Shown here: piece by piece, positions 42,131 through 59,066 of the stretch
Position numbering within the stretch: the stretch's first letter is position 1
Layout: every line of letters starts with the position of its first letter
Source: Stigmatella erecta
GTDB taxonomy: Bacteria > Myxococcota > Myxococcia > Myxococcales > Myxococcaceae
Length of the DNA: 64,000 nt
NCBI RefSeq assembly: GCF_900111745.1
Contig: NZ_FOIJ01000002.1
Span: forward strand, 620,001-684,000
Direction of reading: 5' to 3'
Notes under the pieces: generated by a model
Seen by the model: only the letters and a program-made list of their open reading frames with translations
Told to the model about the DNA's origin: nothing
The model's database searches: none
Made by a program: the position numbers and the translations under genes

Positions 42131-44635
42131 GTGACGGTCGCGCCCAAGCTCATCCCGCTGCGCATCCGCCTTCCGTACACCACGGACGAGGAGTTCATCG
42201 ACAAGTACGGCGCCAACGTGGCGCGCGGCGGGGTGTTCATCGCCACGCGCGCGCCCAAGGAGGAAGGCACCGCGCTGGCCTTCGAGTTCGTCCTCACCGG
42301 GGGCGCGCGCCTGCTGCGCGGCGAGGGCATCGTCGTGAAGGCGCAGCTGGACGAGGGCGGTGGGCGCTCGGGGATGACGGTGCGCTTCACGAAGCTGGAT
42401 GCCCCCAGCAAGGCCCTGCTGGACCGGGTGGTGGCCCGCCGCAGCGGTGAGCCCCTCCCGTCGCCCGAGGTCAATGCCCCCGCCGAGGAGCCTCCCCCGC
42501 AGGCTCCGGCGCCGCCTCCCCCAGCGGCCCCTGTGGCGCCCCCTCCGGGGTTGATCCGCAAGGCCTCGGTCCCGGCAGTGGCGGCTTCCCGTCCCGCGGA
42601 GCCTGCACTCTCCGCGCCCCGGACGGAGGCCCCTGCCCCGCGGCCCTCGCCCCGGGCGGAGGCCCCCGTGGAACCGGCGCCCGGGGCCCGTGTGCCCGCG
42701 CCAGGGGTCCCCACGCCCACGCCGCCCCCGGCGCCCGTGCCGCCGCCCACCGCGCCTCCGCCGGAGCCCACGACTTCCTTCCGGCCGGCGGCGCCAACGC
42801 CTGCACCGTTGACGGCCCCCGTGCCACCTCCGGCGCAGGCGCCTGTCCACGAAGTGCTTCCCGCGCCCCTTCCTTCCGAGGCACCCACTCTTGCCCGCGA
42901 GGCCCTTCCACCGCCTGCGCCCGCACAGGCCCCCGCGCCTCCTCCGGAAGCGCCTCCCGCCGGGACGCCTCTTGCGCCCGAGCCCCCTCGCAAGGGACTC
43001 GACTTCCGGAGCCGCCGCCGGAGCGTGCTCGAAGTGCCCGACCGCCTTCCGGCCGCCCCTTCCGCTCCCGAGGTCGTGCTGGGCATCGATCTGGGCACGG
43101 CGCAGTCGCGGGTCGCGGTGTTCCAGGAAGGGGAGCCCCAGCTCATTCCCGTGGGGGACACCGGGGCGTGGGCGGTTCCCTCCATGATGGGGGTGAACGC
43201 CGAGGGACAGCTGCTCTCCGGAGAGGCCGCGCAGGCCGAGGCCACCCGGGCCCCGCGCCATGCCGCCACGGGCCTCAAGCGCCTGCTGGGGCTGCGTGCC
43301 GGCTCGCCCCGGCTGCGCGGCTTCGTGGGGCTGCCGCTGACCCTCGCGGCCGACGCCTCCGGTGACGCGAGCGTCGAGCTCCATGGCCGCGTCCTCTCCC
43401 TGCGCGAGTTCGCCACCCACCTGCTCGGAGAGCTCAAGGCCACCGCCAGCGCCTTCCTCGGCCGGGACGTCACGCGCGCGGTGCTGTGCGTTCCGGCCTA
43501 CTTCGATGCCCGGCAGCGCGCGGTCCTGCGCGAGGCGGCCGAGCGCGCGGGGCTGACCGTCCCGCGCATGCTCAATGCCCCCGTGGCGGCGACGCTCGCC
43601 TACGGCCATGGCCGGGGCCTGGCGCGCAAGCGGGTCCTCGTGGTGGATCTCGGCGGCGGAGGCCTCGAAGTCTCCGTCATCCAGGTGACGGGCGATGACC
43701 TGGAGGTCGTCACCACCGGCTGGGACGCGACGCTGGGCGGCATGGACTTCGACGCACGCATCGCGGAGGCCCTGCTCGGGGAGCTGCGCGACCGGGGCTT
43801 GCCCCTGCCCGAGCACCCGCTCGACTGGAACCCCCTGCGCGCCGCCGCCGAGACCGCCAAGGTGGCCCTCAGTGAGCTGGAGGAGACGTCCGTGCCGCTG
43901 GCGCCCGGCGTCACGGCCAGCCTGAGCCGGGAGCGCCTCGAAGCGCTCACCGCGGACCTCGCGCACCGCGTGACGGAGGTCACCCGGCAGGTGCTGGAGT
44001 CGAGCGCCCTGACGCCCCAGGGCCTGGATGCCGTGGTGCTCGTGGGAGGCCAGAGCCGGGCGCCGCTGGTCCGCCGGCGGCTGGAGGAGAGCCTCGGCGT
44101 GCCGGTCCGCGCGGATGTGGACCCGCTGAGCGCCGCCGCCCAGGGCGCGGCGTTGCTGGGGCGCTCTCTGCTGGAGATCGAATCCGGCAAGCCGGGGGCC
44201 ACCATCTCGGATGTCCTCTCGGTTCCCCTGGGCGTGGCGGACCAGGGCGGCGCCTTCCGCCGGGTCTTCGAGCGCAACACCCGGCTGCCCGCGGACAAGA
44301 CGCTCGTGCTTCCCGTCGCACCCGGGCCGCTAACCCTGGCGCTCTTCCAGGGCACCTCGCTGCTCGCGCTGGAGAACGAGTACCTGGGAGAGCTCAGCTT
44401 CCCGCTCGAGCGCGCGGGAGAGGCGGAGTTCCACTTCTCGCTCTCCCAGGACGGCATCCTCTCCCTGGAGACCACCCTGCCCGGCGCGAAGCGGCAACCC
44501 GCTCCGCTGGCCTCCGGAGACCTGGACGATGCAGGAAAGGAGGCGCTCTTCGCCCGCTCGCCGCTGCCCAGCGAGCCCGAGGCGCGCCCCAGTGGTCTTT
44601 TCTCCGGACTGAAGAAGCTCTTCGGGAAGCGCTGA
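42131..44635 (+). CDS. PilZ-type domain fused to an Hsp70 (DnaK-like) ATPase domain
   Basis: 834 residues, GTG start. Residues ~1-115 match the PilZ-related domain abundant in Myxococcus (TIGR02266-type: NVARGGVFIAT, then strands ending GMTVRFTKLD). The usual RxxxR and DxSxxG c-di-GMP residues are not well kept (the loop is NVARGG). Residues ~115-300 are a Pro/Ala linker. Residues ~315-690 are an Hsp70 nucleotide-binding domain: LGIDLGTAQSRVAV, ARQRAVLREAAERAGL, VVDLGGGGLEVSVIQV and VLVGGQSRAPLV. A shortened substrate-binding-like segment follows; the helical lid is lacking. Myxobacteria have several divergent DnaK homologues, some affecting social motility; this is not evidently one of the named ones. 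Confidence 0.85.
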   Translation: MTVAPKLIPLRIRLPYTTDEEFIDKYGANVARGGVFIATRAPKEEGTALAFEFVLTGGARLLRGEGIVVKAQLDEGGGRSGMTVRFTKLDAPSKALLDRVVARRSGEPLPSPEVNAPAEEPPPQAPAPPPPAAPVAPPPGLIRKASVPAVAASRPAEPALSAPRTEAPAPRPSPRAEAPVEPAPGARVPAPGVPTPTPPPAPVPPPTAPPPEPTTSFRPAAPTPAPLTAPVPPPAQAPVHEVLPAPLPSEAPTLAREALPPPAPAQAPAPPPEAPPAGTPLAPEPPRKGLDFRSRRRSVLEVPDRLPAAPSAPEVVLGIDLGTAQSRVAVFQEGEPQLIPVGDTGAWAVPSMMGVNAEGQLLSGEAAQAEATRAPRHAATGLKRLLGLRAGSPRLRGFVGLPLTLAADASGDASVELHGRVLSLREFATHLLGELKATASAFLGRDVTRAVLCVPAYFDARQRAVLREAAERAGLTVPRMLNAPVAATLAYGHGRGLARKRVLVVDLGGGGLEVSVIQVTGDDLEVVTTGWDATLGGMDFDARIAEALLGELRDRGLPLPEHPLDWNPLRAAAETAKVALSELEETSVPLAPGVTASLSRERLEALTADLAHRVTEVTRQVLESSALTPQGLDAVVLVGGQSRAPLVRRRLEESLGVPVRADVDPLSAAAQGAALLGRSLLEIESGKPGATISDVLSVPLGVADQGGAFRRVFERNTRLPADKTLVLPVAPGPLTLALFQGTSLLALENEYLGELSFPLERAGEAEFHFSLSQDGILSLETTLPGAKRQPAPLASGDLDDAGKEALFARSPLPSEPEARPSGLFSGLKKLFGKR

Positions 44636-44636
44636 C

Positions 44637-45635
44637 ATGAGCGGAACCCGTGAGCTGCGCACCCGGTTAGAAGCCGCTCAGGCGGAGCTTCAGCGCTCCA
44701 AGGTCCACCTCGACAAGCTGCGCCAGCACCACGAACGGGAGCGGGACGCGCTCCAGCAGGAGTTGGAAGCAGCGCGGCGAGAGGTGGCGGCGCTCCAGCT
44801 CCGTCACGAAGAGGCCCTCCAGGCCCAGGCGCAGCAGAGGGCCGCTGCCCTGCAACAGGCGGTGCTCCTCCCTGCGCCCCCGCCCGTGCCGCCCTCCGCG
44901 CTCGTCGCGCTCGTCCGTCGCCCCGAACCGTTGGATCCGGCCGTGCCCGTCCTGTCGAGGCTGACCGGATTGCCTCCCGCCGATGTGCGGCTGCGGGCCG
45001 CCATGCCCCTGCCCTGCGTCATGGCACGCGTGTCCGTTTCCGAGGCAGAGGCGATGTGTCAGGCGCTTCATGCCGAGGGCTTCGCGGCGGTGAGCAGCGA
45101 GATTCCTCACCCTTCCGCCGGAGGGGTGATGACCGTGCGCCGCTTCACGCTGGAGGCACAGGCCCTTCACCTGGAGGACGCCCGGGGCCGGCGCGAGCAA
45201 CTGCCCTATGAAAGGCTGATGCTGCTGGTCCGGGGCCGCCGGCTCACCCTCTCGGTGGAGAAGCAACTGGAATGGTCCCTTCCTGAAGCCCAACCCCTGG
45301 TCGGCCGAAGGGGATTCTCCGTTCAAGAGCTGAAGGTGCAGGAGGTCAAAAAGGAAGAGCACAGCCAATTCCTGTGGGCCTATGCCGAGGGGCTCCGGAT
45401 GGTCTTTACCCAGGGCACCCAGTTCCAGGGACTGGGCGCTCGCCGGGGAGCCTCTCTGTACGAGAGCCTGCAGAATCTGACGGGCGAGCTGCATCAACGG
45501 GCGCCGCAGGCCGTCCGGGACGATCGGCTTCTGGCCCTGCCCCGCTTCAGCCTGCCCCTGGTCCACGAGGAGCGAGGCCAGGAACTCTTCGCGGAGTTGC
45601 TCTTCCAAGCGGTGAAGCAGCGGGTGTGGCCATGA
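44637..45635 (+). CDS. Coiled-coil protein of unknown function
   Basis: 332 residues, starting at the base after the Hsp70-fusion stop codon. Residues ~1-75 are a long coiled coil (RTRLEAAQAELQRSKVHL and onwards, rich in Glu/Gln/Arg). A Pro linker precedes an alpha/beta region (~100-160, VRLRAAMPLPCVMARVSVSEAEAM) and a larger mixed domain to the end. No known family is recognised. Tight spacing with the PilZ-Hsp70 gene suggests a functional link, for example as a client adaptor, but that is inference. Confidence 0.7.
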   Translation: MSGTRELRTRLEAAQAELQRSKVHLDKLRQHHERERDALQQELEAARREVAALQLRHEEALQAQAQQRAAALQQAVLLPAPPPVPPSALVALVRRPEPLDPAVPVLSRLTGLPPADVRLRAAMPLPCVMARVSVSEAEAMCQALHAEGFAAVSSEIPHPSAGGVMTVRRFTLEAQALHLEDARGRREQLPYERLMLLVRGRRLTLSVEKQLEWSLPEAQPLVGRRGFSVQELKVQEVKKEEHSQFLWAYAEGLRMVFTQGTQFQGLGARRGASLYESLQNLTGELHQRAPQAVRDDRLLALPRFSLPLVHEERGQELFAELLFQAVKQRVWP

Positions 45636-45823
45636 GCGATGCCCAGGAACTTCGCGACAAGCTGGGCGAGGTCAAGAAGGCGCTTCAGCAGCTCAGAGCC
45701 GAGATGGACCAACAGCGGGCACGGCATGCGCGCGAGCAGGAGTCTCTGCAGCGGGCCCTGGACAAAACGCGGCAGGAGGCCACCCAGCTGCGCAAGCGCA
45801 TCGAGCAATTGGAGAACCCTTAG
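45632..45823 (+). CDS. Small coiled-coil protein
   Basis: 63 residues, almost entirely coiled coil (heptad-like Leu/Gln/Glu/Arg). The start overlaps the stop of the previous gene (ATGA), as in translational coupling. Its opening (MSDAQELRDKLGEVKKAL) aligns with the first ~60 residues of the preceding protein (MSGTRELRTRLEAAQAEL), so it looks like a shortened paralogue that could pair with that coiled coil. It closes the alaS-led plus-strand run. Confidence 0.65.
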   Translation: MSDAQELRDKLGEVKKALQQLRAEMDQQRARHAREQESLQRALDKTRQEATQLRKRIEQLENP

Positions 45824-46486
45824 CGCGTATGTGTTTGCCGTGCCCCGTCCCCTGAAGTGCGCTTCCGTTCTAAAGCGGAAAGTCCAGTGAAGGGGGAAGG
45901 GAGTGCCGCTGACGCGAGCCCCCGGGCCAGGCTGTCCCTCCCAAGCTGAAACTGCCGCGCTTCCACGGCGTCTTGGCCTTGGACGCCAATCTCCAGCGAT
46001 CTTGCATCATTTTCCACCTCGAAGGCGCATCCCCCTGCGAAGGATTGCCAGCGAAATCCTGGCCACCCTTCGCGTCACCTGCCCGCTCCAGTGATTCCCG
46101 CTCAACCCGTTACGAAGGGTTTCCTTGTTGACATGGCGTCCGCTATATTGGATATCCGTCTGCCAAGACGGCCATGCCGGGGCCACGTGTGGCCTTCCTC
46201 CCGAGGGTTCTCCGTGCTCCTGTGCCCCGCACCCACCGGCGATTCGCGCCGCTCTGAAGGCGTGCTCGAACCTCATTGCCTTGCGTTCCTCGCCTGGCTG
46301 CCGCCGGCGTCCGCTATGGCGGATGACCGCAACCCAGTGCGCTCTTCCAACCCCTGTTGGGCAGACGTCACGTGACGGCCGGGCTCGCCGTGAAGGTGCT
46401 CCACGACTTGGAGGATGAGGGGCACGACGAGTTCCCCGTGCGTTCGCCATGCCCTGGTGTGTCTGGCCTCTCGATAAGGAGTCTCG
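45824..46486. other. 663-bp intergenic region, candidate promoter and structured leader before the ammonia-lyase-like gene
   Basis: I see no supported gene. Lower-GC stretches appear compared with the neighbours. A TTGACA (46128-46133) has only a weak -10 at proper spacing (GATATC). A 12-bp direct repeat GGCGTCCGCTAT occurs at 46135-46146 and 46306-46317. Short perfect hairpins (such as CCGTCT with AGACGG near 46160) suggest a structured leader of about 340 bases. AAGGAG at 46476-46481, 5 bases before the ATG, serves the next gene. Confidence 0.5.
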
Positions 46487-48130
46487 ATGTCCCAAAAAGC
46501 GCTGTACGTGCTCATCGCAGCCATGTTCCTACGCGCGGCGCCGGCCCGGGCTGACGTGACGCTTGATGGCAAATCGGCCACTCCCGAAGCGATCGCCGCC
46601 ATCGCGCAAGGCCAACCCGTGAGGATCGCCCCCGAGGCATTCAAGCGCATCGAGCAGGCGCACCGGGTGCTGCTGCAGGCCGCGGCCGAAGGCCAGACCA
46701 TCTACGGCCTGACGGTGGGCGTGGGCTTGAACAAGGACCGGGCCATGGTCGACGCGCAGGGCAAGCTCACCGAGGAAGTCATCGAGGCGTCGCGGCGCTT
46801 CCAGATCGGGCTCATCCGCGCGCACTCCGGCAGTGTCGGTCCCGATATGGATGTCCAGACGGTGCGGGCGACGATGGCGGCCAGGCTCAACACCCTGCTG
46901 GTGGGTGGGGCGGGCGTTCAACCGGAGGTCATCGACGCCTACGTGCAGTTCTTGAATCGGGGCATCGCGCCGGTCATTCCGGCGGGCGGCTCCCTGGGAG
47001 AAGCCGATATCACCATCATCAGCCATGTCGGGCTCGCGATGCTCGGTGAGGGCGAGGTCTATTACAAAGACCAGAAGACCTCCGCGGCGAAGGCGCTCCA
47101 GGCCGCGGGCGTGAAGCCGGTGAAGCTGTTCGGCAAGGACGCCCTCGCGATCCTGAGTTCGAACGCGTATTCGGCGGGCATGGCGGCGCTCGCGCTCAAC
47201 GAGCTGTCGCACCTCATCACCGTGAACAAGCTGGTGTACGCGCTCAGTCTGCAGGCGATCAACGGCAACGTGTCGCCCCTGCTCGAAGACACGCTGGCGC
47301 TGCGCCCCTTTCCCCAAACGGTCCGCGCGGGCGCGGAGCTGCGGGAGCTGCTCTCCGGCTCGAGCCTGTGGAACCAGGATGCCACGCGCCGGCTTCAGGA
47401 CCCGCTCAGCTTCCGCGACAGCGTCTATGTGCTGGGCGAAGTGACCCGCACGTACGACGAGGCACGCAGCCTGCTCAACATCCAGTTGAATTCCTCCGAC
47501 GACAACCCGGGTGTGGCGGTGAACGTGACGCCGAAGTCGCAGCGCTGGCAGGAGAAGAAGAGCTACGTGGTGGCGGCGGACATGGCGGGCGCGGTGCTGC
47601 CCAGTGCCAACTTCGAGCCGCTGCCCTGGGTCCTCGCCTTCGAGCAGCTGGGCATCGCGCTGGCGCACAACTCGCTCACCTCCGCGCAGCGCATCATCAA
47701 GCTGGACGACCCCACCATCACCGGCCTGGAGCGCTATCTCGGGACGGAGAAGACCGTGCATGCGTTCGGCGCGATGGAGAAGCCCGTGGTGGCCCTGGCG
47801 CTGGAGAACAAGGTGCTGGCGGCTCCCGTGTCCACCGAGTTCTTGCCCGTGGCGGGTGGAATCGAAGACATCGCGACGAACGCGCCCGAGGTCGTGAAGC
47901 GCGTCCAGAAGCAGGTCGACAACAGCTACGCGCTGCTCGGAATTGAGTCCATTCACAGCGCCCAGGCCATCGACCTGCGCCGGGCGAGCCGCAAGGAGTT
48001 CACGCTCGCGCCCGCGACCGCGAAGCTCTACGGCGCGGTACGGCGCAAGGTCGCGTTCCTCGATGAGGATCGTCCGTTGACACCCGACTTCCGCGCGGCC
48101 GCCGAGGTCCTGCGGAACTACCACGATTAG
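46487..48130 (+). CDS. Secreted aromatic amino acid ammonia-lyase (HAL/PAL) homologue lacking the MIO triad
   Basis: 547 residues with a signal peptide (cleavage after ARA at ~residue 22). The rest aligns along its length with the HAL/PAL/TAL fold: YGLTVGVG (substrate Tyr and Gly loop, ~75), LQDPLSFRDSVYVLG, NSSDDNPGVAV and LENKVLAAPVSTEFLPVAGGIED. In the core, where active members have Gly-Ala-Ser-Gly-Asp (the Ala-Ser-Gly cyclises to the MIO group), this protein reads GSLGEADITIISH. The triad is therefore absent and replaced by Glu-Ala with one residue fewer. It cannot make a normal MIO, so it may catalyse a different reaction or be a binding protein in the periplasm. An outer-membrane barrel gene starts 27 bp on. 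Confidence 0.85.
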   Translation: MSQKALYVLIAAMFLRAAPARADVTLDGKSATPEAIAAIAQGQPVRIAPEAFKRIEQAHRVLLQAAAEGQTIYGLTVGVGLNKDRAMVDAQGKLTEEVIEASRRFQIGLIRAHSGSVGPDMDVQTVRATMAARLNTLLVGGAGVQPEVIDAYVQFLNRGIAPVIPAGGSLGEADITIISHVGLAMLGEGEVYYKDQKTSAAKALQAAGVKPVKLFGKDALAILSSNAYSAGMAALALNELSHLITVNKLVYALSLQAINGNVSPLLEDTLALRPFPQTVRAGAELRELLSGSSLWNQDATRRLQDPLSFRDSVYVLGEVTRTYDEARSLLNIQLNSSDDNPGVAVNVTPKSQRWQEKKSYVVAADMAGAVLPSANFEPLPWVLAFEQLGIALAHNSLTSAQRIIKLDDPTITGLERYLGTEKTVHAFGAMEKPVVALALENKVLAAPVSTEFLPVAGGIEDIATNAPEVVKRVQKQVDNSYALLGIESIHSAQAIDLRRASRKEFTLAPATAKLYGAVRRKVAFLDEDRPLTPDFRAAAEVLRNYHD

Positions 48131-48157
48131 GCTGGCTTGAATTCTTCGGAGACGGCA

Positions 48158-49381
48158 ATGAGCAACACGCAAAGAAGGCCGTGTTTTCCCGCACTGATGG
48201 CGGGTGCCCTGATCATGGCCACCGGTACCGCCGCCAGGGCCGAGGATGACCCACTCGGGGTGTTCAAGCTGGGCGACGGGACTTTGAAGGTGGGTGGCGC
48301 GCTCCGCGTCCGCCTGGATGCCACGCTGGACTCGCCCAAGCCCACGAGCGGCATCTCCTGGGACGTGGCGTGGTTGAGCGCCAGGTACGACTCCCCCACG
48401 TTCTTCGGCGCCTTCCAGTACCGCTTCTACGGTGGCACCAATGCCATCGGGTACTCGGACACCACCAACCTGGGGCAGGAGAATTACCTCACGTTCGCGT
48501 ACCTGGGCTACAACCTCACCAGCGAGCAAAAGCTCACCCTGGGAATGCACCAGATACCGTTCGGCATCCTCCCCTGGGTGAGCAGCTCGTTCTACCAGAC
48601 CATGGCCAACGTCATTGGTCTGGAGGATGTGCACAACGCCGGTATCAAATACAACTATAGCAATAGCGCGCTCACCCTCGATGCGGCCTACTACCTGCGC
48701 GATGGCGGCAGCTACTTCGGCCCGACGAGGGATGCGAACCGTTACTCGATTGGCTTCGTCCGGCACGACAGCTACGTCGAGGGGGGCACCAACAGCCGGG
48801 AGCGGCACCAGTTCATCGGGCGCGCGGCCTACAAGTTCGCCCATGGCCTGGAGAGCTCGTCCGAAGTCGGCGCCTCCGGGTTGTACTCCAGGATCCAGAA
48901 CCTGGATACCCGCGAGTCCGGCGGCCGGCTGGCCACCGCGCTCCACCTCGTCGGCAATTACGGCAGGGTCCGCACCCTGATCGAGGCCGGTCTCCAGCGA
49001 ATCGACCCCCGGAACCCGGACCAAGACAACTCGCTCATCACCATGGGCGGCTTCGGCGGCTCCTTCAAGGTGGCCACCAAGGGGAAGTTCCTCTCGCTCG
49101 ACCTCAGCTACAACGTGCCGGGCTCGTGGGCCTATATCAGTGGCGTGAGGCCGTATCTGAACTACAGCGTCTTCACGAAGGATGAAGCGGCGTTCAAGAC
49201 CTCGCACCGCCTCTTCGCGGGCACCTCGTTCTCCCTGTACGACCGGTGGTGGATCGCCGCGGAGTTCCGCTTCGGCAGGAACGATCCGTACACCGGCTCG
49301 TATGTGAATGGCCTGGGCGTGGGTGGCGACGACCGGTGGCACAGGGCCTACTACATGAACGTCGGCTATTACTATCCCTAG
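48158..49381 (+). CDS. Outer-membrane beta-barrel (porin-like) protein
   Basis: 407 residues. The ATG at 48158 gives a signal peptide with cleavage after ARA (MSNTQRRPCFPALMAGAL to ATGTAARA). The mature protein is a series of ~10-residue amphipathic strands joined by short turns (VAWLSARYDSPTFFGAFQYRFYGG, QNLDTRESGGRLATALHLVG). It ends with an aromatic terminal strand (RAYYMNVGYYYP), close to the outer-membrane C-terminal signature. No family is recognised. It follows the ammonia-lyase-like gene by 27 bp, probably one operon, and could admit the ligand of that periplasmic protein. Confidence 0.8.
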   Translation: MSNTQRRPCFPALMAGALIMATGTAARAEDDPLGVFKLGDGTLKVGGALRVRLDATLDSPKPTSGISWDVAWLSARYDSPTFFGAFQYRFYGGTNAIGYSDTTNLGQENYLTFAYLGYNLTSEQKLTLGMHQIPFGILPWVSSSFYQTMANVIGLEDVHNAGIKYNYSNSALTLDAAYYLRDGGSYFGPTRDANRYSIGFVRHDSYVEGGTNSRERHQFIGRAAYKFAHGLESSSEVGASGLYSRIQNLDTRESGGRLATALHLVGNYGRVRTLIEAGLQRIDPRNPDQDNSLITMGGFGGSFKVATKGKFLSLDLSYNVPGSWAYISGVRPYLNYSVFTKDEAAFKTSHRLFAGTSFSLYDRWWIAAEFRFGRNDPYTGSYVNGLGVGGDDRWHRAYYMNVGYYYP

Positions 49382-49396
49382 CGGGAGCCCAGCCGG

Positions 49397-50728
49397 TCAG
49401 CCCTGGGAGGGGCTGACGCCCTGGGAGAGGGAGGCGCCCGGCGCGCGGCCGGGCTTGAGGCTGACGAGGGCGGGCGCCGCCAGCACCGCGGCGATGATCA
49501 CATACCAGCCGGGAGCGAAGACGCCGCCGCGCCCCGTGAGCCAGGCGAGCACCGCCGGCGCGAAGCCACTGAACAGGGTGACGGCGAGGTTGTAGCAGAC
49601 CGACACCCCGGTCGAGCGCACGCGGGCCGGAAACAACTCGGCGAGCGTCGAGGGGGCCACGCCCACGAAGCAGCCGACGCCGATGCACAGCAGGGTCTGG
49701 GCGGCGATCAGCGTGGCGAGGCCGTGCTGAGTCTGCACGAGCCAGAGCATCGGGTGGACCAGCACCACCAGCCACAGGGCCGCTGCCATCAGCACGGTCT
49801 TGCGGCCCAGGCGGTCCGAGGCAATCCCGGCGAGGACACAGATGGCCACCATGACGACGTTGCCAACCAGCGAGGCGGTGAAGGCTTCGGACGGGGTGTA
49901 GCCGAAGCTCCGCTGCACGTAGGTCGGCATGAAGATGACGAGGACGTAGCTGGAGACCGTCCAGAGGATCGACAGGCTCGAGCCCTTCAGCACCATCAGC
50001 GGGAACTCGGACAAGAGCGTCCTCAGGGGCCGGACGGGCGCGCTGCCCCGGTGCCCGGCCTCACGCTTGAACTCCGGCGTCTCGTCGAGGGTGTTGCGGA
50101 TCCACATGCCGATCGGCGCGATCAGCAGGCCAATCACGAACGGTATGCGCCAGCCAAAGCCATCCAGCTGCTCCCGGGTCAACAGCGAGGTCACTCCGAA
50201 GGCCACCAGGGCGCCCAGGATGTTCGAGGCGGCCATGCTCGCCTGGAGCCAAGAGGCGTATTCCCCGCGCCGGTGGCTGGGGGCATGCTCGATCAGGAGC
50301 GCTGCCGCCCCCCCGACCTCGCCACCGGCCGAGAACCCCTGCAGCACACGGCCCGCGAGCAGCAACAAGGGCGCGCCAACCCCAATGGCCGCATAGGTCG
50401 GCGAGACGGCGATGATCAGGGTGCCCACCGCCATCAGGCCGATGGTGGCGGTGAGCACCGCCTTGCGGCCTGCCCGGTCGCCGTAGATGCCGAGCAGCAC
50501 CGCCCCCAAGGGGCGCACCACGAAGCCCAGCCCGAAGGCGAGAAAGGCCTTCACCAACTCGATGGTCGGGTCGGAGCTGGGAAAGAAGGCCTTGGCGATG
50601 GAGAGGGCGAAGAGGGCGTAGACGGTGAAGTCGTACCACTCGAAGACGTTGCCGCTGCAGGCGGCGATGACCGCGCGGCGGCTGGTGCGCTCGTCCACCT
50701 CCAACGCTCGAACCTGACTCTCGGGCAT
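49397..50728 (-). CDS. MFS transporter, metabolite:H+ symporter (MHS) family
   Basis: 443 residues, twelve predicted membrane segments. The opening GNVFEWYDFTVYALFA and the loop GAVLLGIYGDRAGRKAVLT (MFS motif A) are typical of the MHS family, as is the RVLQGFSAGGEVGGAAA stretch. MHS members import small metabolites such as carboxylates, proline or aromatic acids with protons. It ends 15 bp from the convergent barrel gene and its start is divergent from the desaturase. Its substrate may be the same compound handled by the neighbouring secreted lyase homologue, but that is inference. Confidence 0.88.
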   Translation of the reverse strand: MPESQVRALEVDERTSRRAVIAACSGNVFEWYDFTVYALFALSIAKAFFPSSDPTIELVKAFLAFGLGFVVRPLGAVLLGIYGDRAGRKAVLTATIGLMAVGTLIIAVSPTYAAIGVGAPLLLLAGRVLQGFSAGGEVGGAAALLIEHAPSHRRGEYASWLQASMAASNILGALVAFGVTSLLTREQLDGFGWRIPFVIGLLIAPIGMWIRNTLDETPEFKREAGHRGSAPVRPLRTLLSEFPLMVLKGSSLSILWTVSSYVLVIFMPTYVQRSFGYTPSEAFTASLVGNVVMVAICVLAGIASDRLGRKTVLMAAALWLVVLVHPMLWLVQTQHGLATLIAAQTLLCIGVGCFVGVAPSTLAELFPARVRSTGVSVCYNLAVTLFSGFAPAVLAWLTGRGGVFAPGWYVIIAAVLAAPALVSLKPGRAPGASLSQGVSPSQG

Positions 50729-50788
50729 GCGGTGACGTTACGCCAAGCCCACGTGGTTGGACAGAGCGCCAGCCGTTATGATGCCGGC

Positions 50789-51793
50789 ATGGTGGCTGCT
50801 CCCCCGACCCCATCCATCGCCGATGCCGACACCCTCAGCGCTTCAACGGACTCGCGTGGCGCCGCCTGGTGGCAGCGTTGGGAGATTCCGACCTGGCTCG
50901 TCGCCGCCGCCATCTATGGCGCCTGGGCGGGGCTGGTGTTGTTCCATGCCGTGATTCCCTGGCCGCTCTTGATGCTTGCCGGCGCCTATGTACTCGCCTG
51001 GCACTTCTCGTTGCAGCACGAGGCGATCCACGGATGGCAGAGCATCCCGCCCTGGTTGCGCACGGCGCTCGTCTGGCCTCCGATTGGCGGCTGGCTGCCC
51101 TTCGCGCTCTACCGGCACAGCCATACCATCCACCACCGCAACCACCACCTGACCTATCCGGGGTTGGACACCGAGAGCGTGTATCACCGCGAAGAGGACT
51201 GGGCCCGCTATTCGAAAGCATGGCGGGCGGTCCTGATGTTCAACCAGACCCTGCTCGGGCGCATGCTGATCGGGCCCATCCTGCGCCTTCGCAAGCTGGT
51301 GCTGACAGAGGGGGCGCGGGTGCGCGCGGGCGACTTCCGCAACGGCGGCATCTGGTTGCGCTTCGCCGTGGGGCTGGCGGCGGTGCTGTGGTTCGTCTCG
51401 TCCGTTGCCCACATGCCGATCTGGAAGTACTACCTCCTCATGGTCTACCCGGCCTTCAGCCTGGGACTGGTGCGGGCCTTCATCGAGCACCGTTGGGGCG
51501 AGCATCCGGAGGAGCGGGTCGCGAGCGTCGAGAGCAACTGGGTTTTCGGCCTGCTGTTCCTGTGGAACAACCTTCACATCGTGCACCACCTGGATCCGGT
51601 CCTGCCCTGGTACGAGATCCCTGGCGCCTACCGCCGCGGCCGCGAGGAGCTGTTGCGCCGCAACGGCTCCTATGTGTTCAAGGGTTATGGGGAGATCGCG
51701 CGGCGCTGGTTGCTGAAGCCGGTGTTCATCCCCATCCACCCGCGCGGGGCACCTGGCAACGCCGTGACGCCCGCAGCGCGCCGTGGCGCCTAG
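50789..51793 (+). CDS. Fatty acid desaturase
   Basis: 334 residues from the ATG at 50789 (longer open frames upstream are antisense to the transporter). It is a membrane di-iron desaturase with all three histidine boxes, HEAIHG (~residue 78), HTIHHRNHH (~112) and NNLHIVHHLDP (~265), and four or more membrane segments. It introduces double bonds into acyl chains. Divergent from the MHS transporter across 60 bp, and its stop overlaps the convergent PhnD-like gene by four bases. Confidence 0.9.
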   Translation: MVAAPPTPSIADADTLSASTDSRGAAWWQRWEIPTWLVAAAIYGAWAGLVLFHAVIPWPLLMLAGAYVLAWHFSLQHEAIHGWQSIPPWLRTALVWPPIGGWLPFALYRHSHTIHHRNHHLTYPGLDTESVYHREEDWARYSKAWRAVLMFNQTLLGRMLIGPILRLRKLVLTEGARVRAGDFRNGGIWLRFAVGLAAVLWFVSSVAHMPIWKYYLLMVYPAFSLGLVRAFIEHRWGEHPEERVASVESNWVFGLLFLWNNLHIVHHLDPVLPWYEIPGAYRRGREELLRRNGSYVFKGYGEIARRWLLKPVFIPIHPRGAPGNAVTPAARRGA

Positions 51794-52599
51794 GCCAGAA
51801 CAGGGTAGCCCAGCTCGGCGGCCCGCCGCGCATGGTCGAGGAGGGCGCTGTACTCGGCCTGCGGCGCCGGCTCGATACGGGCGAGCCGCAAGCCGCTCAA
51901 CACGCTGGCGAAGCGAGGCTCCGCTGACATCCGGTACAGGCACCGCTGCAGCGCGGCCACGGTCGCGTCGCCGGTGCGGGCGGAGGTGACGAACGGCAGG
52001 GTGGGGCTCGGTGGCGTCTGGGCGATGACCCGGAGCTCCTCGACCAACTCCGGCTGATGGTCCTGGGAGAAGGCGTAGGTCAGGCAGTCGATCGAGGCGC
52101 AGTCGGCGCCGCCCCCGGCGACCAGCCTCATGCTGGCACCATGCCCGCCGGTCTCGAGCACCTCGCCGAAGAAGGGCTTGCCGCCGGCCACTTCCGCCAG
52201 CATCCGGCGCGGCAGGTTCATGCCCGAGTTGGAGTGAAGGCTGTTCAGGGCGAAGCGCTGACCGCGCAGGTCGGCCACCCGGCGCGCGGGCGAAGACTTC
52301 CGCGCCACGAGGAAGGCGCTGTGGGTGGAGCCGGTACAGCCCGCAGCGTCGTAGCAGGGCCGGGCCAGGAGCCGGTACTGGCCCTGGTAGACAGTCTGCA
52401 GGGGATAACCGCAGACCTGGGTGAATAGCACCTCGTCACCGATCACCTCGGGCACCGGCGGCCGTTCGAACGACAGGCTTTCGGGCACGCCTTCAATCCC
52501 CTCTTCGCGCAGCAGCCCACTCAAGGCCGTCCAGAAGGCGGTGTTCACCGCCCGCATGCCAGGGGCGTTGTACATCGGCAGGCTGGCGGTCATCGGCAT
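51790..52599 (-). CDS. PhnD-like phosphate/phosphonate-type binding protein without signal peptide
   Basis: 269 residues with the periplasmic-binding type 2 layout of PhnD-like proteins: MYNAPGMRAVNTAFW, FTQVCGYPLQT, LRGQRFALNSLHSNSGMNLPRRML and GGGADCASIDCLTYAF. There is no signal peptide at the used ATG, and the open frame does not extend upstream in a way that would add one. No ABC partner genes are adjacent. It may be a cytoplasmic ligand-binding protein. The function stays open. Confidence 0.8.
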   Translation of the reverse strand: MPMTASLPMYNAPGMRAVNTAFWTALSGLLREEGIEGVPESLSFERPPVPEVIGDEVLFTQVCGYPLQTVYQGQYRLLARPCYDAAGCTGSTHSAFLVARKSSPARRVADLRGQRFALNSLHSNSGMNLPRRMLAEVAGGKPFFGEVLETGGHGASMRLVAGGGADCASIDCLTYAFSQDHQPELVEELRVIAQTPPSPTLPFVTSARTGDATVAALQRCLYRMSAEPRFASVLSGLRLARIEPAPQAEYSALLDHARRAAELGYPVLA

Positions 52600-52771
52600 G
52601 CTCTCAGCTTATAGAACCACCCGCTGACGGTGGAGCGTGACTTCTTGGAAAAGCGGCGGCCTTCTTCGGCAAGAGACGAGCCGTCCGCCCCTCCTCCACA
52701 CCTCTGCACCAGCCCTCCCCTTCAACAGGGGCCCCAGTGACACGGCCGGGAGCCGCACGTCCAATGGCCCG

Positions 52772-53821
52772 TCACCGGCGTGGACGTTGCTCGCGGCCAT
52801 GCCCCTGCGGAAGCGCATCGCCCACCGCGGAGCGCTTCTCGTCTGTGTGTGCGAAGGGCCCGCGCCGGAACGCTGCCGGGCCCGTGCCCTGCAAGCGTTT
52901 GAACGCGCGGCTGAACGCAGGAACGCTCTCGTACCCCACGCGGCCTGCGATGGTCTCCACCTTCTCGGTGGTGTCGCGAAGCAGCTCCGCGGCCCGCGCG
53001 ATGCGCCAGCGCGCGAGGTACTGGAGCGGGGATTCGCCCACGAGCTCCGTGAAGCGCGCCGCGAACCCTGAGCGCGACATGCCCACGCGCCGCGCGAGCA
53101 TGTCGACGGTCCAAGGCTCGGCGACGCGGGCGTGCATGAGGCTCAGCGTCTCGTAAACCCGTGGGTCGGCAACGGCGGCGATGGCGCCGCGCTGACATGG
53201 GCCATTCCCCACCGTCGAGCGGAGTGCGAGCACGAACAGCACGTCGGCAAGACGCTGAAGCACGATGTTCCCCGCCGGCCGGGGCGACGCGCTCTCGGCG
53301 AGAATGAATTGAACCGCAGCGGAGATCCATGGCCCCGAGGCAGGGTCGCTCGCCGACAAGACGACGAGCGGCGGCACGCCCTGAAGGAGCACAGGCCCGC
53401 GTCCGTCGCTCAGTTCGAAGAAGCCCGCGACAATGGCGGTGGCTGCGCCGTGCCCCCCGATGCGCCGGGGCACCCAGCTGAGAGAGTAAGGTCCGTCGCA
53501 GACCGGGAGCGGCTCGCTGTCAGCCGAATCGCGCAGCACGTGGGCCGTGCCGTGTGGGACGAACCCGGCCTCTCCAGACGATAGGACGTGCGCTCGCTCC
53601 CCCTCGACCTCGAGCCGTGCGCTGCCGTGCGCGACGAGGTAAAAGCTCGCGCGATTCCGGCGGGGAATGCGAAGCCCCCACGGCGCGCGCGCCTCGATGG
53701 GGCTGTAGAGTGCGTGCCGGATCAGCGAGGCGCCGAGCACGTCGGCGACCGCGTCTCCCCGTGGATCTCGAAGCTCCAACGGCGTTGGCTTTTCAGCTAA
53801 CTGTTTTGGAGTTTTGCGCAT
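52772..53821 (-). CDS. AraC-family transcriptional regulator
   Basis: 349 residues from the ATG at 53821; a longer frame upstream to 54805 is antisense to the hydrolase gene and is not used. The N-terminal region is a cupin-like sensor of the AraC_binding_2 kind (SSGEAGFVPHGTAHVLRD). The C-terminal ~100 residues are a double helix-turn-helix (MLARRVGMSRSGFAARFTELVG, then AGRVGYESVPAFSRAFKRL). Divergent from an alpha/beta hydrolase gene, which is likely its target. The control region holds a short direct repeat. Confidence 0.9.
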   Translation of the reverse strand: MRKTPKQLAEKPTPLELRDPRGDAVADVLGASLIRHALYSPIEARAPWGLRIPRRNRASFYLVAHGSARLEVEGERAHVLSSGEAGFVPHGTAHVLRDSADSEPLPVCDGPYSLSWVPRRIGGHGAATAIVAGFFELSDGRGPVLLQGVPPLVVLSASDPASGPWISAAVQFILAESASPRPAGNIVLQRLADVLFVLALRSTVGNGPCQRGAIAAVADPRVYETLSLMHARVAEPWTVDMLARRVGMSRSGFAARFTELVGESPLQYLARWRIARAAELLRDTTEKVETIAGRVGYESVPAFSRAFKRLQGTGPAAFRRGPFAHTDEKRSAVGDALPQGHGREQRPRR

Positions 53822-53827
53822 GGAGCG

Positions 53828-53852
53828 TCCATAGCGCAGGCAGTATCCATAG
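53828..53852. promoter_or_regulatory. Direct repeat in the AraC/hydrolase divergent control region
   Basis: TCCATAG occurs twice, at 53828-53834 and 53846-53852, an 18-bp period, just upstream of the AraC-regulator start and about 100 bp from the hydrolase start. AraC-type proteins bind paired half-sites, so it is a candidate operator, but seven bases is short and chance is possible. Confidence 0.35.
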
Positions 53853-53953
53853 ACCAAGTCACACACGGGGCGTCTGCCTGGGCCGCTTGCCGGCCTCGCA
53901 CAGTGCTCGTCGTGAAGGCCGTCACGATCGCAGGACGAAAGGAGAGTGGTCCC

Positions 53954-54898
53954 ATGCTCAAGCCTATCCCTCGAACTGAAAACGGGGCCTTCGATGCGCC
54001 CGCGCCAGTGGTGTCGGTGAGTCCGGCCGTTCTGCCTGCACCGGGGCGGGGCGCGGATCTGGAAGTGCGGGTCTCCGCGCCCGTCACGGGAAGCGATTTG
54101 CCCATCATCGTTTTCGCGCACGGCCATGGGTCGTCGTCGGACGGCTATCTTCCCCTCGCGCACTATTGGGCGGCTCGTGGCTTCGTCGTGGTCCAGCCCA
54201 CCTTTCTTGATTCGAGGACGTTCGGCCTCGAACCGGATGATCCGCGGACCCCGTCGATCTGGAAACTCCGCATCGACGATGTGACGCGCGTTCTCGATCA
54301 CCTGGACGTCATCGAAGCTTCCGTTCCGGGACTCACGGGCCGCGTCGATCGCAGCCGGCTCGCCGCAGCTGGGCACTCGTTCGGGGCTCAAACAGTGGGG
54401 ATGCTGCTCGGCGCCAGAATGAGGGGGCCCGATGGCCGATTGAGTGAGGATCTGTCCGATCCTCGGATCAAAGCCGGTGTGTTGCTTTGCGCAGGGGGCC
54501 GAGGGGGCGACGCGCTGAGCCCTCTCGCGCGCGAGCATTTTCCGTATCTGAATCAGGTCTATGCCGGGATGACCACGCCGGCCCTCGTCGTCGCGGGCGA
54601 TCGGGACAATTCTCCGTTGACCGTCCGCGGTCCGGAATGGTTCACGGACGCGTACACCTTGAGCCCGGGCCCCAAGTCGCTCCTGACGCTGTCCGGAGCC
54701 GAGCATATGCTCGGTGGGATCTCCGGGGATCGCGTGACGGAAACGACCGACGAGAACCCCGCGAGAGTTGCAGCCGTCCAGCGGCTCACATGGGCGTACC
54801 TCCACACGGCGCTCTCCCCTGGCGATCGTGCTTGGCCCGTGGCGTGCGCGGAGTTGATGACGAGCCCAACCCCGCAGGGACGGGTTGAAAGCAAATAA
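53954..54898 (+). CDS. Alpha/beta hydrolase (chlorophyllase/PAF-acetylhydrolase-like)
   Basis: 314 residues from the ATG at 53954, with AAGGAG 9 bases upstream. Fold marks are LPIIVFAHGHGSSSDGY (oxyanion strand, ~residue 53), the nucleophile elbow AAGHSFGAQ (Ser ~140), a probable catalytic Asp in VAGDRDNS (~220) and a His in GAEHMLGG (~250). This arrangement suits the PAF-AH/chlorophyllase-like esterases, cytoplasmic here because no signal is present. Divergent from the AraC regulator. Confidence 0.88.
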   Translation: MLKPIPRTENGAFDAPAPVVSVSPAVLPAPGRGADLEVRVSAPVTGSDLPIIVFAHGHGSSSDGYLPLAHYWAARGFVVVQPTFLDSRTFGLEPDDPRTPSIWKLRIDDVTRVLDHLDVIEASVPGLTGRVDRSRLAAAGHSFGAQTVGMLLGARMRGPDGRLSEDLSDPRIKAGVLLCAGGRGGDALSPLAREHFPYLNQVYAGMTTPALVVAGDRDNSPLTVRGPEWFTDAYTLSPGPKSLLTLSGAEHMLGGISGDRVTETTDENPARVAAVQRLTWAYLHTALSPGDRAWPVACAELMTSPTPQGRVESK

Positions 54899-54951
54899 TT
54901 GCCGGCAGCCAATCCACCTTCCATTCGCTTCGGGCGATAAAGTGCGGCTCC

Positions 54952-56037
54952 ATGAGCCTCCGTTTCATGGCGTCCGTGATGTCCTGGTGTCTGATTTTCG
55001 GGCTCGCCGCTCCCAAAGCGCTGGCCGAGGAAGCCCCTCCCCCACGGTTCGTGATGGCGGATGTGGCCCGGGTGAGAAAGGAGCCCAAGGAGCGTGGCGC
55101 GGTGGTGGGCCTGCTGCGAATCAACGCCCGGGTCGAGCCCCTCGCCGCGGAGAACGACGGCAAGTGGCTCCCGATCTCCGTGCCTCAATCCCGCCTGAAG
55201 GGCTGGATCGCCGCGGCCTCGCTGCGCGAGTCGGAGGTCACCCAGGCCGAGGCGCGGGAGCAGCTCCTCAAGGCCTTGTCCGCTGGCGATAAGCCAGGGG
55301 CCCTCTCCTGGGCCGATCGTCTTCGGGCCCTCTCCCCCGCCCAAGAGGATGACCTGAAGCTCGCGCTCAAGGCCTACGAACGGTTTGACAGGAAGGAGCG
55401 GGCTTCTGCCGTGCGGCAGGTCCTTTCCGGCGAACAAACCCTCTACATCGCCGCGTGCCTGCCAGACAGGACTCGCTCCGTGCTAGCGCAGTTCCAATCC
55501 TCCCGGGGGCTCCAGCCGGTGGAGGACCCCGCCGCACTCATCCAGTGGATCGCGGGCTCTCCCTGGTATGTGTCCTCCACGGGAGAGCAGCAGGCCGCGC
55601 AACCGGTGGACGGAGGGCGCTTCGCCAGTCCCCGTCAAAAGCCCGAGCCCAAATCCAACCCCGATGATGAGGAGGAAGTGCACGGTGGATACGGCGAGTT
55701 GGACCGCGCCGTCCTGGAGCCCTGCGGCCAGAACTCCCAGGAGGGGCTGCTCGCGGCGACCTGGCCCTTCCAGCGGATCGGCGCAAGCGAGCGGACGCGT
55801 ACCCCCACCCCCCCGGATGCGGACAGCATCCCCTCCTCCGAGCACCCGCGGATAGAGACAGAGCGAGAGACCCTGGAACTCACCCTGGGCGGAATGCTCC
55901 ACCGCTTCGAACTCGAACTCATCTCCAAGGACGTCGGAGCGTGCGGCAGCTCCCAGTCCGCTCGCATCACGCACCACCTGAAGGACGGCAAGCCCAAGAC
56001 GCTCACCCTCATCCTCCAAGAAATCGTCACCTGCTGA
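54952..56037 (+). CDS. Exported SH3b-domain protein
   Basis: 361 residues. Signal peptide MSLRFMASVMSWCLIFGL to ALAEE. Residues ~35-100 form a bacterial SH3 domain (ADVARVRKEPKERGAVVGLL through LKGWIAAASLRES), which often binds peptidoglycan. The rest is helical, then low-complexity and acidic, then a strand-rich C-terminus with Cys residues (GACGSS, and a terminal Cys). No enzyme motif. It is the last gene before the toxin island and its stop is 49 bp from the left 284-bp repeat. Confidence 0.8.
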   Translation: MSLRFMASVMSWCLIFGLAAPKALAEEAPPPRFVMADVARVRKEPKERGAVVGLLRINARVEPLAAENDGKWLPISVPQSRLKGWIAAASLRESEVTQAEAREQLLKALSAGDKPGALSWADRLRALSPAQEDDLKLALKAYERFDRKERASAVRQVLSGEQTLYIAACLPDRTRSVLAQFQSSRGLQPVEDPAALIQWIAGSPWYVSSTGEQQAAQPVDGGRFASPRQKPEPKSNPDDEEEVHGGYGELDRAVLEPCGQNSQEGLLAATWPFQRIGASERTRTPTPPDADSIPSSEHPRIETERETLELTLGGMLHRFELELISKDVGACGSSQSARITHHLKDGKPKTLTLILQEIVTC

Positions 56038-56085
56038 AGCCTTGTGGGTTCAGTGCACGGGGAGAGCGGAGCAGGTCCATCGACC

Positions 56086-56369
56086 CCGCATCATCCCGGC
56101 TTGCCGTACCCCAGGATTTCGTCCTCCTCGAACTCCACCACCCAGCCGCCCGGCAGGGCCATCGCGGAGAGCAGCTCGGACCGGCGGCGCAGCAGCTCGA
56201 ACACCGGGAACTGCTCGGGCGGCACGCCGCTCACCGCCCCTGGGGGCATGATGAGCCAGCCGGAGTCCCCCGCTTCGGGTTCCAGCGCACGCGCCAGCGC
56301 CACCCGCTCGCTCTTCTCCCAGCCCGGCACCGCCGTCACCGTGTCGGTGAAGCGGGGGAAACGAGGCTC
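56086..56369. repeat. 284-bp direct repeat, left copy (truncated copy of the 3' end of the gene at 58788)
   Basis: Same orientation as 58783-59066, same length, about 15 substitutions and no indels (about 95% identity by eye). The matching stretch begins CCGCATCATCCC and ends GAGGCTC. It corresponds to the last ~93 codons of the gene at 58788-59372. The repeats bracket the IS fragment and toxin-immunity genes. Confidence 0.9.
56091..56369 (-). pseudogene. Truncated 3' fragment of the 58788-59372 gene
   Basis: Encodes the C-terminal ~93 residues seen in the full gene (EPRFPRFTDTVTAVPGWEKS to ILGYGKPG) with few changes and the same stop codon. The 5' part is missing and is replaced by unrelated sequence with an IS-type end at 56387. 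An open frame continues to 56426 but runs antisense into the IS fragment, so it is not a natural start. The kept reading frame suggests recent duplication or capture from a related strain. Confidence 0.8.
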
Positions 56370-56386
56370 TGAGCCTCCTCGGGTTT

Positions 56387-56512
56387 TGTGGACACCGAAG
56401 ATGAGGTGACCGAAGGATGTCCACAACGATGCCGAGAAGAGAGCGCAGAAAGTACACGCCGGAGTTCAAGGCCCGAGCGGTGAAGCTGGTACTGGAGCAG
56501 AGGCGACACGCG
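56387..56512 (+). mobile_element. IS3-type insertion sequence fragment (left end and start of transposase OrfA)
   Basis: A terminal-repeat-like TGTGGACACC at 56387 is followed by a frame from 56429 reading MPRRERRKYTPEFKARAV and KLVLEQ, the N-terminal helix-turn-helix start of IS3-family OrfA proteins. Similarity stops near 56512, so only the first ~28 codons remain. It sits at the junction of the left repeat and the toxin gene. Confidence 0.7.
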
Positions 56513-56590
56513 CATCGTGACCCTCGACGGGGGCCGCTTTCCTCGGGTTGTGCTCCCAGCGCGGGGTAAATTATGGCCAGGAGGCTACAC

Positions 56591-56778
56591 ATGTCGCGCT
56601 CGGCGGTCGTGCTGCTGTTCGTGTTGCACTCAGCGTGCAGCGCCTCAACGAGGGGTGCTGTACGCTTGGACACAGACCAGGGCGACCCCATCGTCCACAC
56701 TCCGCTCCGTGACGTGGAGCCGGTGACGGTGAGCGAAAAGCAGTTCAAGAAGGCCGTCGCGCAACATGCCCCCTCTCC
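56591..56778 (+). pseudogene. Lipoprotein leader of a SitA-like toxin, separated from the body by a frameshift
   Basis: The ATG at 56591 follows AGGAGG by 6 bases and starts a lipoprotein signal (MSRSAVVLLFVLHSACS) as in myxobacterial SitA toxins, followed by VRLDTDQGDPIVHTP and the VSEKQFKKAVAQHAPS stretch. After codon 62 (Ser, 56774-56776) the frame breaks. Skipping the two bases 56777-56778 joins it directly to the PIVERPLEYAGRLFGVPERSG body. Without a correction the frame ends at 57004 in unrelated residues. The site lies in a C-rich tract (GCCCCCTCTCC), so a sequencing error is possible. Confidence 0.75.
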
Positions 56779-58029
56779 GTGCCCATCGTGGAGCGACCTC
56801 TGGAATACGCTGGGCGGCTGTTCGGAGTGCCCGAGCGAAGCGGCTGGTACCGGTACGAGGGCCACAGCCAGCGTCTTATGGCCTCAAAGCAGGAGAGCAC
56901 CCGGAACATGCGCCTGTTGCCCGAGGACGCGGAGCTCAAGCGCCGCTACCTGCTGTGGTGTGAGCACACGTGGGGAAGCGGAGATTGCCTGCGCGTGCTG
57001 GTAGACAAATCCTTCTTGGATGGGGATGCCAAGTACGCACTGGCCATGGCGATTGCTCACAGCAAAGTACTGGGGTCCATGACGGAGGAACTCTCCCGGA
57101 TGGTGAACCCCCAGGCGGTGGTGGCCACCGTCGTGGGCGGCCTGACCCTGTACGCCATCTTGCTCACCCTGCCCGAGCCTGTGAGCAAGGGCATCGCCGC
57201 GCTGATGACGGTCGGGGCCATGGCCTACATGGGATGGGACACGGTGTGGCGCCTGATGGATGGGTGGCTGGTGCTGATGAAGGAAGTGGATCAGGCCACT
57301 ACCTTCGACGGCATCTCCGCGTCCGGCGAGAAGTTTGGGGCAACGATGGGGGAGAAGGCGGCACGCGCCTTCGTCATGCTGGGCATGGTGGCACTGGGGA
57401 GTACAACATCAGGTCTGGCGGCGAAGCTGCCGAAGTTGCCTGAGGCTGGGCAAGCGGCGGCGGTGGCCAAGGCGCAGTTGAACATCCACTTCACGGCCCC
57501 AGCACTGTCACAGGTGGAGTCAGTCGCCCTCGCTGCTGAGGGCGTCACCATCGCGCTGAGCTCCAACGCAGTCGCCATGACGGCGCACGACCTCTCAGGT
57601 GGCAAGGCTGGGGTGCAGGCTGCGCCGCCCAGCGCCGATGGGCCGGGGGGATGGGTCCAGGTGGACGAATCCATGTCCGAGAGCGCCCGAACCTATCAAG
57701 CCCAGAGGACTGGAACCCCCAAGGGCTACGCCTACCGCGTGAAATCGGGTGGCGAGCAAGTGGACTTCGATGGCTTCGACCAAGGGGTGCTGCTGGAGGT
57801 CAAGGGTCCGGGCTACGCGCAGTGGATCACCCAGAAACTGGAGTTTCTGCCGATCTTCAAGGGACGCCTCAAATTGCTGGAACAAGCACGGCGCCAGTTC
57901 GAAGTTGCCAACGGAACCCCCGTCCGGTGGATCGTCGCTGAGGAGAAACTCGCAGGCGCACTCAAGAAGGTGTTCAAGGGGGCTGGCCTCGACGAGATCG
58001 AAGTCATCCATGTTCCACTCGCCCCATGA
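56779..58029 (+). CDS. SitA-like polymorphic toxin body with C-terminal Tox-REase-5 nuclease domain
   Basis: Reads through 416 residues from a GTG at 56779. Residues ~90-150 hold hydrophobic segments (VVATVVGGLTLYAILLTL and IAALMTVGAMAYMG) shared by SitA-type proteins. The C-terminal ~100 residues (from YAYRVKSGGEQVDFDGF) match the Tox-REase-5 fold, with the PD-(D/E)xK-type signature DFDGFDQGVLLEVKG, the LLEQARRQFEVANG helix and the RWIVAEEKL strand. SitA lipoproteins are delivered to kin by TraA/TraB outer-membrane exchange. Here the leader lies in another frame, so export is doubtful unless the frameshift is an error or is bypassed. An Imm52-type gene follows. Confidence 0.8.
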   Translation: MPIVERPLEYAGRLFGVPERSGWYRYEGHSQRLMASKQESTRNMRLLPEDAELKRRYLLWCEHTWGSGDCLRVLVDKSFLDGDAKYALAMAIAHSKVLGSMTEELSRMVNPQAVVATVVGGLTLYAILLTLPEPVSKGIAALMTVGAMAYMGWDTVWRLMDGWLVLMKEVDQATTFDGISASGEKFGATMGEKAARAFVMLGMVALGSTTSGLAAKLPKLPEAGQAAAVAKAQLNIHFTAPALSQVESVALAAEGVTIALSSNAVAMTAHDLSGGKAGVQAAPPSADGPGGWVQVDESMSESARTYQAQRTGTPKGYAYRVKSGGEQVDFDGFDQGVLLEVKGPGYAQWITQKLEFLPIFKGRLKLLEQARRQFEVANGTPVRWIVAEEKLAGALKKVFKGAGLDEIEVIHVPLAP

Positions 58030-58043
58030 GGAATAGCCATCCG

Positions 58044-58763: not shown

Positions 58764-58782
58764 CTGCATGGCCGTTGAGAAG

Positions 58783-59066
58783 CCGCATCATCCCGGCTTG
58801 CCGTAGCCCAGGATTTCGTCCCCTTCGAACTCCACCACCCAGCCGCCCGGCAGGGCCATCGCGGAGAGCAGCTCGGAGCGTCGGCGCAGCAGCTCGAACA
58901 CCGGGAACTGCTCGGGCGGCACGGTGCTCAACGCCCCCGGGGGCATGATGAGCCAGCCGGAGTCCCCTGCTTCGGGGGCCAGCGCACGCGCCAGCGCCAC
59001 CCGCTCGCTCTTCTCCCAGCCCGGCACCGCCGTTACGGTGTCGGTGAAGCGGGGGAAGCGAGGCTC
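58783..59066. repeat. 284-bp direct repeat, right copy (3' end of the intact gene)
   Basis: Identical in length and orientation to the left copy (56086-56369), about 95% identical. This copy is continuous with the full-length gene. The arrangement (truncated copy, IS fragment, cassette, full copy) suggests that the cassette arrived by recombination at the 3' end of this gene. Confidence 0.9.

Follow-up and report, generated by a model that had tools for sequence, protein, structure and literature searches.

What does a protein with the fold of histidine and phenylalanine ammonia-lyases (HAL/PAL) do when the Ala-Ser-Gly triad that forms the MIO prosthetic group is missing and its N-terminus resembles an export signal? 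The question is raised by a gene at 46487-48130 of a 64,000-nucleotide stretch of Stigmatella erecta DNA (contig NZ_FOIJ01000002.1, positions 620,001 to 684,000), referred to here as the window; its product is termed the window lyase. A first-pass annotation proposed an undescribed activity for this protein. Our analysis makes it quite probable that the gene encodes an exported, periplasmic ergothionase, with a predicted activity that yields thiourocanate and trimethylamine (Table 1). The undescribed activity was not borne out, since the MIO-less HAL fold is that of the known ergothionase family and all the compared residues that distinguish ergothionases are kept. The same annotation was nearer the mark in suggesting chemistry unlike that of the ammonia-lyases, an imidazole amino-acid derivative as substrate and a place outside the cytoplasm, all of which are supported at the sequence level, with an ergothionase as the closest solved relative. 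As judged by its sequence, the window lyase is a member of a known family, and what deserves further attention is its likely exported location, the presence of ergothioneine-synthesis genes in the same genome and the absence of recognisable downstream enzymes.

Table 1. Features of the window at and around the predicted ergothionase gene
Feature	Position	Strand	Evidence and remarks
Exported ergothionase (ergothioneine trimethylamine-lyase; predicted), MIO-less HAL/PAL fold, 547 aa	46487..48130	+	PF00221 408.7 bits; best PDB relative 6s7j; AlphaFold2 fold; tree
Putative Sec signal peptide, residues 1-22 (MSQKALYVLIAAMFLRAAPARA)	46487..46552	+	By eye, hydrophobicity, conservation
Loop at the MIO triad position, residues 168-174, GSLGEAD instead of GSVGASGD	46988..47008	+	Alignments
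Cassette, about 95.7% identical in two congeners	46088..52652		46476-52652 plus upstream piece 46088-46407; flanks unrelated in each genome
Putative outer-membrane barrel/porin, signal-like N-terminus, probable ATG 48158	48137..49381	+	No Pfam or usable PDB match
MFS metabolite:H+ symporter family transporter	49397..50728	-	TIGR00883 358.7 bits, under its cut-off of 443
Fatty-acid-desaturase-family membrane protein, in cassette	50789..51793	+	PF00487 98.8 bits; conserved in L012 and L013
PhnD/AioX-like substrate-binding protein, in cassette	51790..52599	-	PF12974 102.7 bits; AioX/PtxB-like in the PDB

The coordinates, strand and frame of the open reading frame were verified, with ATG at 46487, a stop at 48130 and 547 codons. 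The Pfam Lyase_aromatic model spans residues 32-519 of the product at a cut-off of 27.3 bits, and this match, together with structure comparison, confirmed the HAL/PAL fold. In every alignment, the loop P-A-G-G-S-L-G-E-A-D-I-T stands against P-x-x-G-S-V-G-A-S-G-D-L of HAL, so that Glu-Ala replaces Ala-Ser-Gly with one residue fewer (GSLG-EA-D versus GSVG-ASG-D), exactly as the first-pass annotation had read it. Its statement that the substrate-side Tyr is kept holds for Tyr73, at the HAL Tyr53 position, but fails for HAL Tyr280 ('QDPYSLR'), where the window lyase has Leu307 as in ergothionase. GASGD is retained in the two other PF00221 proteins of the host and in the true HutH of P. saliphilus.

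A phmmer search of the PDB gave Treponema denticola ergothionase 6s7j as the top match (302.8 bits, 5.5e-89), followed by a HAL (199.7 bits, 9.7e-58). An AlphaFold2 model of the window lyase, for which alignment rows from the plasmid collection were left out, had a mean pLDDT of 90.1. With this model, 6s7j was the top hit in Foldseek, at E 6e-36 with the runner-up enzyme at 5e-29, and again in the ranking by structural Z-score, at 44.0 versus 41.6. The T. denticola loop reads SIGEGDIT and shares the one-residue gap, and ergothionase has been described as resembling HAL yet lacking MIO (PMC13405746, citing Maurer et al. 2019). The window lyase lacks the triad because it belongs to ergothionase, a known MIO-less HAL-fold family (PDB 6s7j/6s7q), and its Glu-Ala loop is, by alignment, normal ergothionase sequence. 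The T. denticola enzyme further shares the fold and the NKD motif, has Leu where HAL has Tyr280 and carries counterparts of Lys430 and Glu460; it differs in being only about 38% identical, in the absence of a signal peptide from the solved sequence and in being shorter around window residues 343-370. HutH and the PAL/TAL/aminomutases share with the window lyase the PF00221 fold, the Tyr53 position and the Glu-Asp motif at 460-461, but they carry Ala-Ser-Gly and Tyr280, release ammonia rather than trimethylamine and, in those compared, have no signal peptide. No NCBIfam model names the window protein an ergothionase.

The signal peptide noticed in the first pass is plausible: by eye and by hydrophobicity, the 22-residue N-terminal extension MSQKALYVLIAAMFLRAAPARA, followed by Asp, is Sec-like, and export is graded likely on these grounds rather than proven. 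T. denticola ergothionase has almost nothing ahead of the position equivalent to window residue 26. A Sec-like hydrophobic N-terminal stretch was found in 82 of 86 homologues under a loose rule by which 27% of internal Met stretches qualify as well, and the position and the AxA-like end of the extension recur across phyla. Barrel-like proteins accompany the homologues at some loci. No description of an exported ergothionase was found in the literature searched, which is weak evidence of absence.

A homologue scan in which each species was represented by one genome found 80 related loci. Addition of plasmid loci and congeners brought these to 86, which were aligned with the window lyase and the T. 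denticola enzyme (88 sequences). In a tree of the MIO-less homologues and HALs, the MIO-less group was separated from the HALs with a support of 100; the position of T. denticola ergothionase is uncertain because of long branches. The window lyase lies in a clade of 38 rows (support 98) with enzymes of Burkholderia, Caballeronia, Cupriavidus, Serratia and Pseudomonas gingeri. It is 60-73% identical to the Burkholderia, Caballeronia and Serratia enzymes beside which the tree places it, and its nearest relative outside the congeners is a Holophagaceae protein (73%). Annotated homologue records are labelled histidine or aromatic amino acid ammonia-lyase. A 2026 survey described ergothionase as rare, though it allowed that poorly annotated homologues might be missed (PMC13405746). 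The reassignment of a supposed new activity to a known family suggests that the ergothionase family is larger than annotation shows.

Two kinds of genomic context recur among the homologues. A HutU-like urocanase is present at 27 of the 86 loci and an orthologue of the window MFS transporter (about 54-59% identical) at 24. In Burkholderia arboris, neighbouring gene products score above the NCBIfam equivalog thresholds of three ergothioneine-utilisation enzymes, namely thiourocanate hydratase (1050/930), thiohydantoin desulfurase (608/440) and hydantoin-5-propionate amidohydrolase (ErtD, 694/600). The Burkholderia-type ergothionases compared here, of the kind known from Burkholderia sp. HME13, are about 70% identical to the window lyase and share its signal-peptide-like N-terminus, the same inspected residues and the adjoining orthologous MFS transporter and porin. 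Unlike these operons, the window locus has no adjoining thiourocanate hydratase, thiohydantoin desulfurase, ErtD or LysR, and a desaturase and a PhnD-like protein are present instead.

At 35 of the 86 loci, different from those of the HutU/MFS type, a flavocytochrome c or FAD_binding_2-type flavoprotein lies near the lyase, and one such flavoprotein compared with the PDB had urocanate reductase as its best solved relative. Taxa with this pair include Shewanella, Ferrimonas, Campylobacter, Parasutterella and enterics. Lyase homologues with signal-like N-termini lie near urocanate-reductase-like flavoproteins at loci L043-L093 (e.g., L078:8334-11587 and L061:9914-13192). Both the thiourocanate-operon context and the flavoprotein context are consistent with a (thio)urocanate as the lyase product. 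The pairing suggests extracytoplasmic respiration on ergothioneine-derived thiourocanate. Such a urocanate reductase (UrdA)-like flavoprotein is absent from the neighbourhood of the window gene. A host UrdA was also considered as a partner and rejected; no close UrdA was found in the host genome, where the weak matches were to other flavoproteins.

The host carries egtB (410.8 bits, cut-off 360) and egtD (368.7 bits, cut-off 291) side by side, which indicates that ergothioneine is probably made in its cytosol and that synthesis and breakdown are probably separated by compartment. Its sole urocanase is canonical HutU, with 947 bits for TIGR01228 and only 701 of the required 930 for the thiourocanate hydratase model. 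This model (NF058530) was not matched above cut-off in the host or in the two cassette-carrying congeners, which have canonical HutU only, and thiohydantoin desulfurase (NF058529) had no match in the same three genomes (G000, G004 and G005). In two control genomes, NF058529 gave weak matches, none over the cut-off. Without these two enzymes, the rest of the known ergothioneine-utilisation (Ert) pathway is missing from the host.

A mechanism can be proposed for the exported enzyme. Ergothioneine would enter via the neighbouring putative outer-membrane barrel and would be cleaved outside the cytoplasm, in the periplasm. The ergothionase would take the C-beta proton of ergothioneine and expel trimethylamine by an acid/base-catalysed beta-elimination, leaving thiourocanate. 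With a quaternary amine as the leaving group, an electrophilic MIO would not be needed. The neighbouring MFS transporter may then import thiourocanate or another product, and export of the lyase would protect the cytosolic ergothioneine of the host. If most homologues are exported, ergothioneine could be broken down without an inner-membrane ergothioneine importer, which runs contrary to the implication of a review (PMC7653990). One organism could also make ergothioneine inside and destroy it outside.

The remaining genes of the cassette may bear on the missing steps. At some Shewanella and Ferrimonas loci, proteins encoded 2-5 kb away from the lyase homologue are 24-27% similar to the putative barrel, and Burkholderia homologues are also flanked by porins. 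The desaturase and PhnD-like genes adjoin each other on a Methylosinus plasmid beside a sulfite dehydrogenase (soxC) and on a Rhizobium plasmid near a flavin-dependent oxidoreductase, and the desaturase gene of Variovorax adjoins a rhodanese-domain gene. That this pair handles the sulfur of ergothioneine is a guess. A wider reading, which we hold only tentatively and consider unlikely as a whole, is that the host cassette is a different catabolic route for ergothioneine (or hercynine), in which the exported lyase would cut the betaine beyond the inner membrane while the desaturase and the PhnD-like protein replace thiourocanate hydratase and thiohydantoin desulfurase for the thione sulfur, and that, more widely, an exported lyase with a urocanate-reductase-like flavoprotein would allow extracytoplasmic respiration on ergothioneine in one cell.

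The main rival to ergothioneine as substrate is a related trimethylammonium compound. The window lyase could be a trimethylamine-lyase of hercynine, giving urocanate usable by the HutU/HutI of the host, or of ergothioneine sulfonate. The host EgtD makes hercynine, canonical hutU-hutI is present and the two thiourocanate-pathway enzymes are missing, all of which would suit such a substrate. In Paracoccus, a hut cluster includes a related lyase, with a gene of the sulfate-exporter family close by, and the loss of the Lys430 equivalent in rhizobial relatives makes substrate changes within the family plausible. However, the closest relatives of the window lyase lie in thiourocanate operons, and it is identical at 16 of 16 inspected positions to the Burkholderia and C. 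neocaledonicus proteins. Both organisms are named sources of ergothionase (PMC13405746), although the loci meant there may differ from those compared here. The related betaine is therefore given a rather low probability, and ergothioneine is preferred.

The residues common to ergothionases and absent from HutH are all present in the window lyase (Asn82, Lys83, Ser224, Asn226, Leu307, Asp338 and Lys430); Lys83 is also found in one non-HutH paralogue (HAL_own2). Tyr73, Asn82, Lys83, Asp84 and Glu460 are invariant across the aligned MIO-less homologues, and the HAL Tyr280 position is Leu in every homologue with sequence there. Tyr73, Lys83, Lys430 and Glu460 are presumably the acid/base and binding groups, in line with the residue roles in the T. 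denticola enzyme. Lys430 is kept in most homologues and is replaced by Ala in a rhizobial clade and by Asp in the Parasutterella group. On pSymA of S. meliloti (L008, 9932-11569), the MIO-less lyase has Ala for Lys430 and Gln for Glu172, so its substrate may differ, and a DMSP-lyase-like cupin is encoded close to it.

The first-pass annotation had also considered a receptor. The loss of the MIO triad and the signal-peptide-like N-terminus would be expected of a periplasmic receptor or an otherwise non-catalytic protein, but the ergothionase residues Tyr73, Asn82, Lys83, Asp84, His113, Glu172, Lys430 and Glu460 are all intact and the homologues sit within catabolic or respiratory operons, which makes such a role very improbable. 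An MIO-type ammonia-lyase with its triad misplaced by the alignment would share the overall HAL fold, but the chance of this is negligible, since none of the 88 aligned MIO-less sequences has ASG in the loop and the solved ergothionase with the same loop is described as MIO-less. These sequences include the 96-97% identical copies in two congeners, so neither sequencing errors nor a wrong frame account for the triad loss. A missed or misaligned triad in the window lyase was likewise ruled out by alignments against HAL and ergothionase.

Finally, the ergothionase gene appears to be part of a mobile block. Of six congeners, two carry the 6-kb stretch 46476-52652 at 95.7% identity, and the threshold applied gave no copy of the lyase in the remaining four. 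The flanks differ in every genome, and an upstream backbone stretch is 76% identical in the two cassette-carrying congeners. A five-gene block that is about 96% identical at unrelated sites, against a backbone of 76%, points to horizontal movement, which is likely for 46088-52652 on this sequence comparison. The AraC gene and the hydrolase beyond 52652 are outside the conserved block. Congener G005 departs from the window after the position matching 45825 and rejoins it some 340 bases later at the position matching 58785, so about 13 kb of the window (45825-58785) may be an insertion. A direct repeat of 284 nt, 95% identical, occupies 56086-56369 and 58783-59066. A stretch of about 33 bases at 45825-45858 is found again close to the ends of three further contigs of the host genome, and this repeat may interrupt the assembly. 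Contig C35 has a second, partial copy of 44906-45825. Further upstream, 42131-44635 encodes an Hsp70-family protein with a weak N-terminal PilZ match just under the cut-off.
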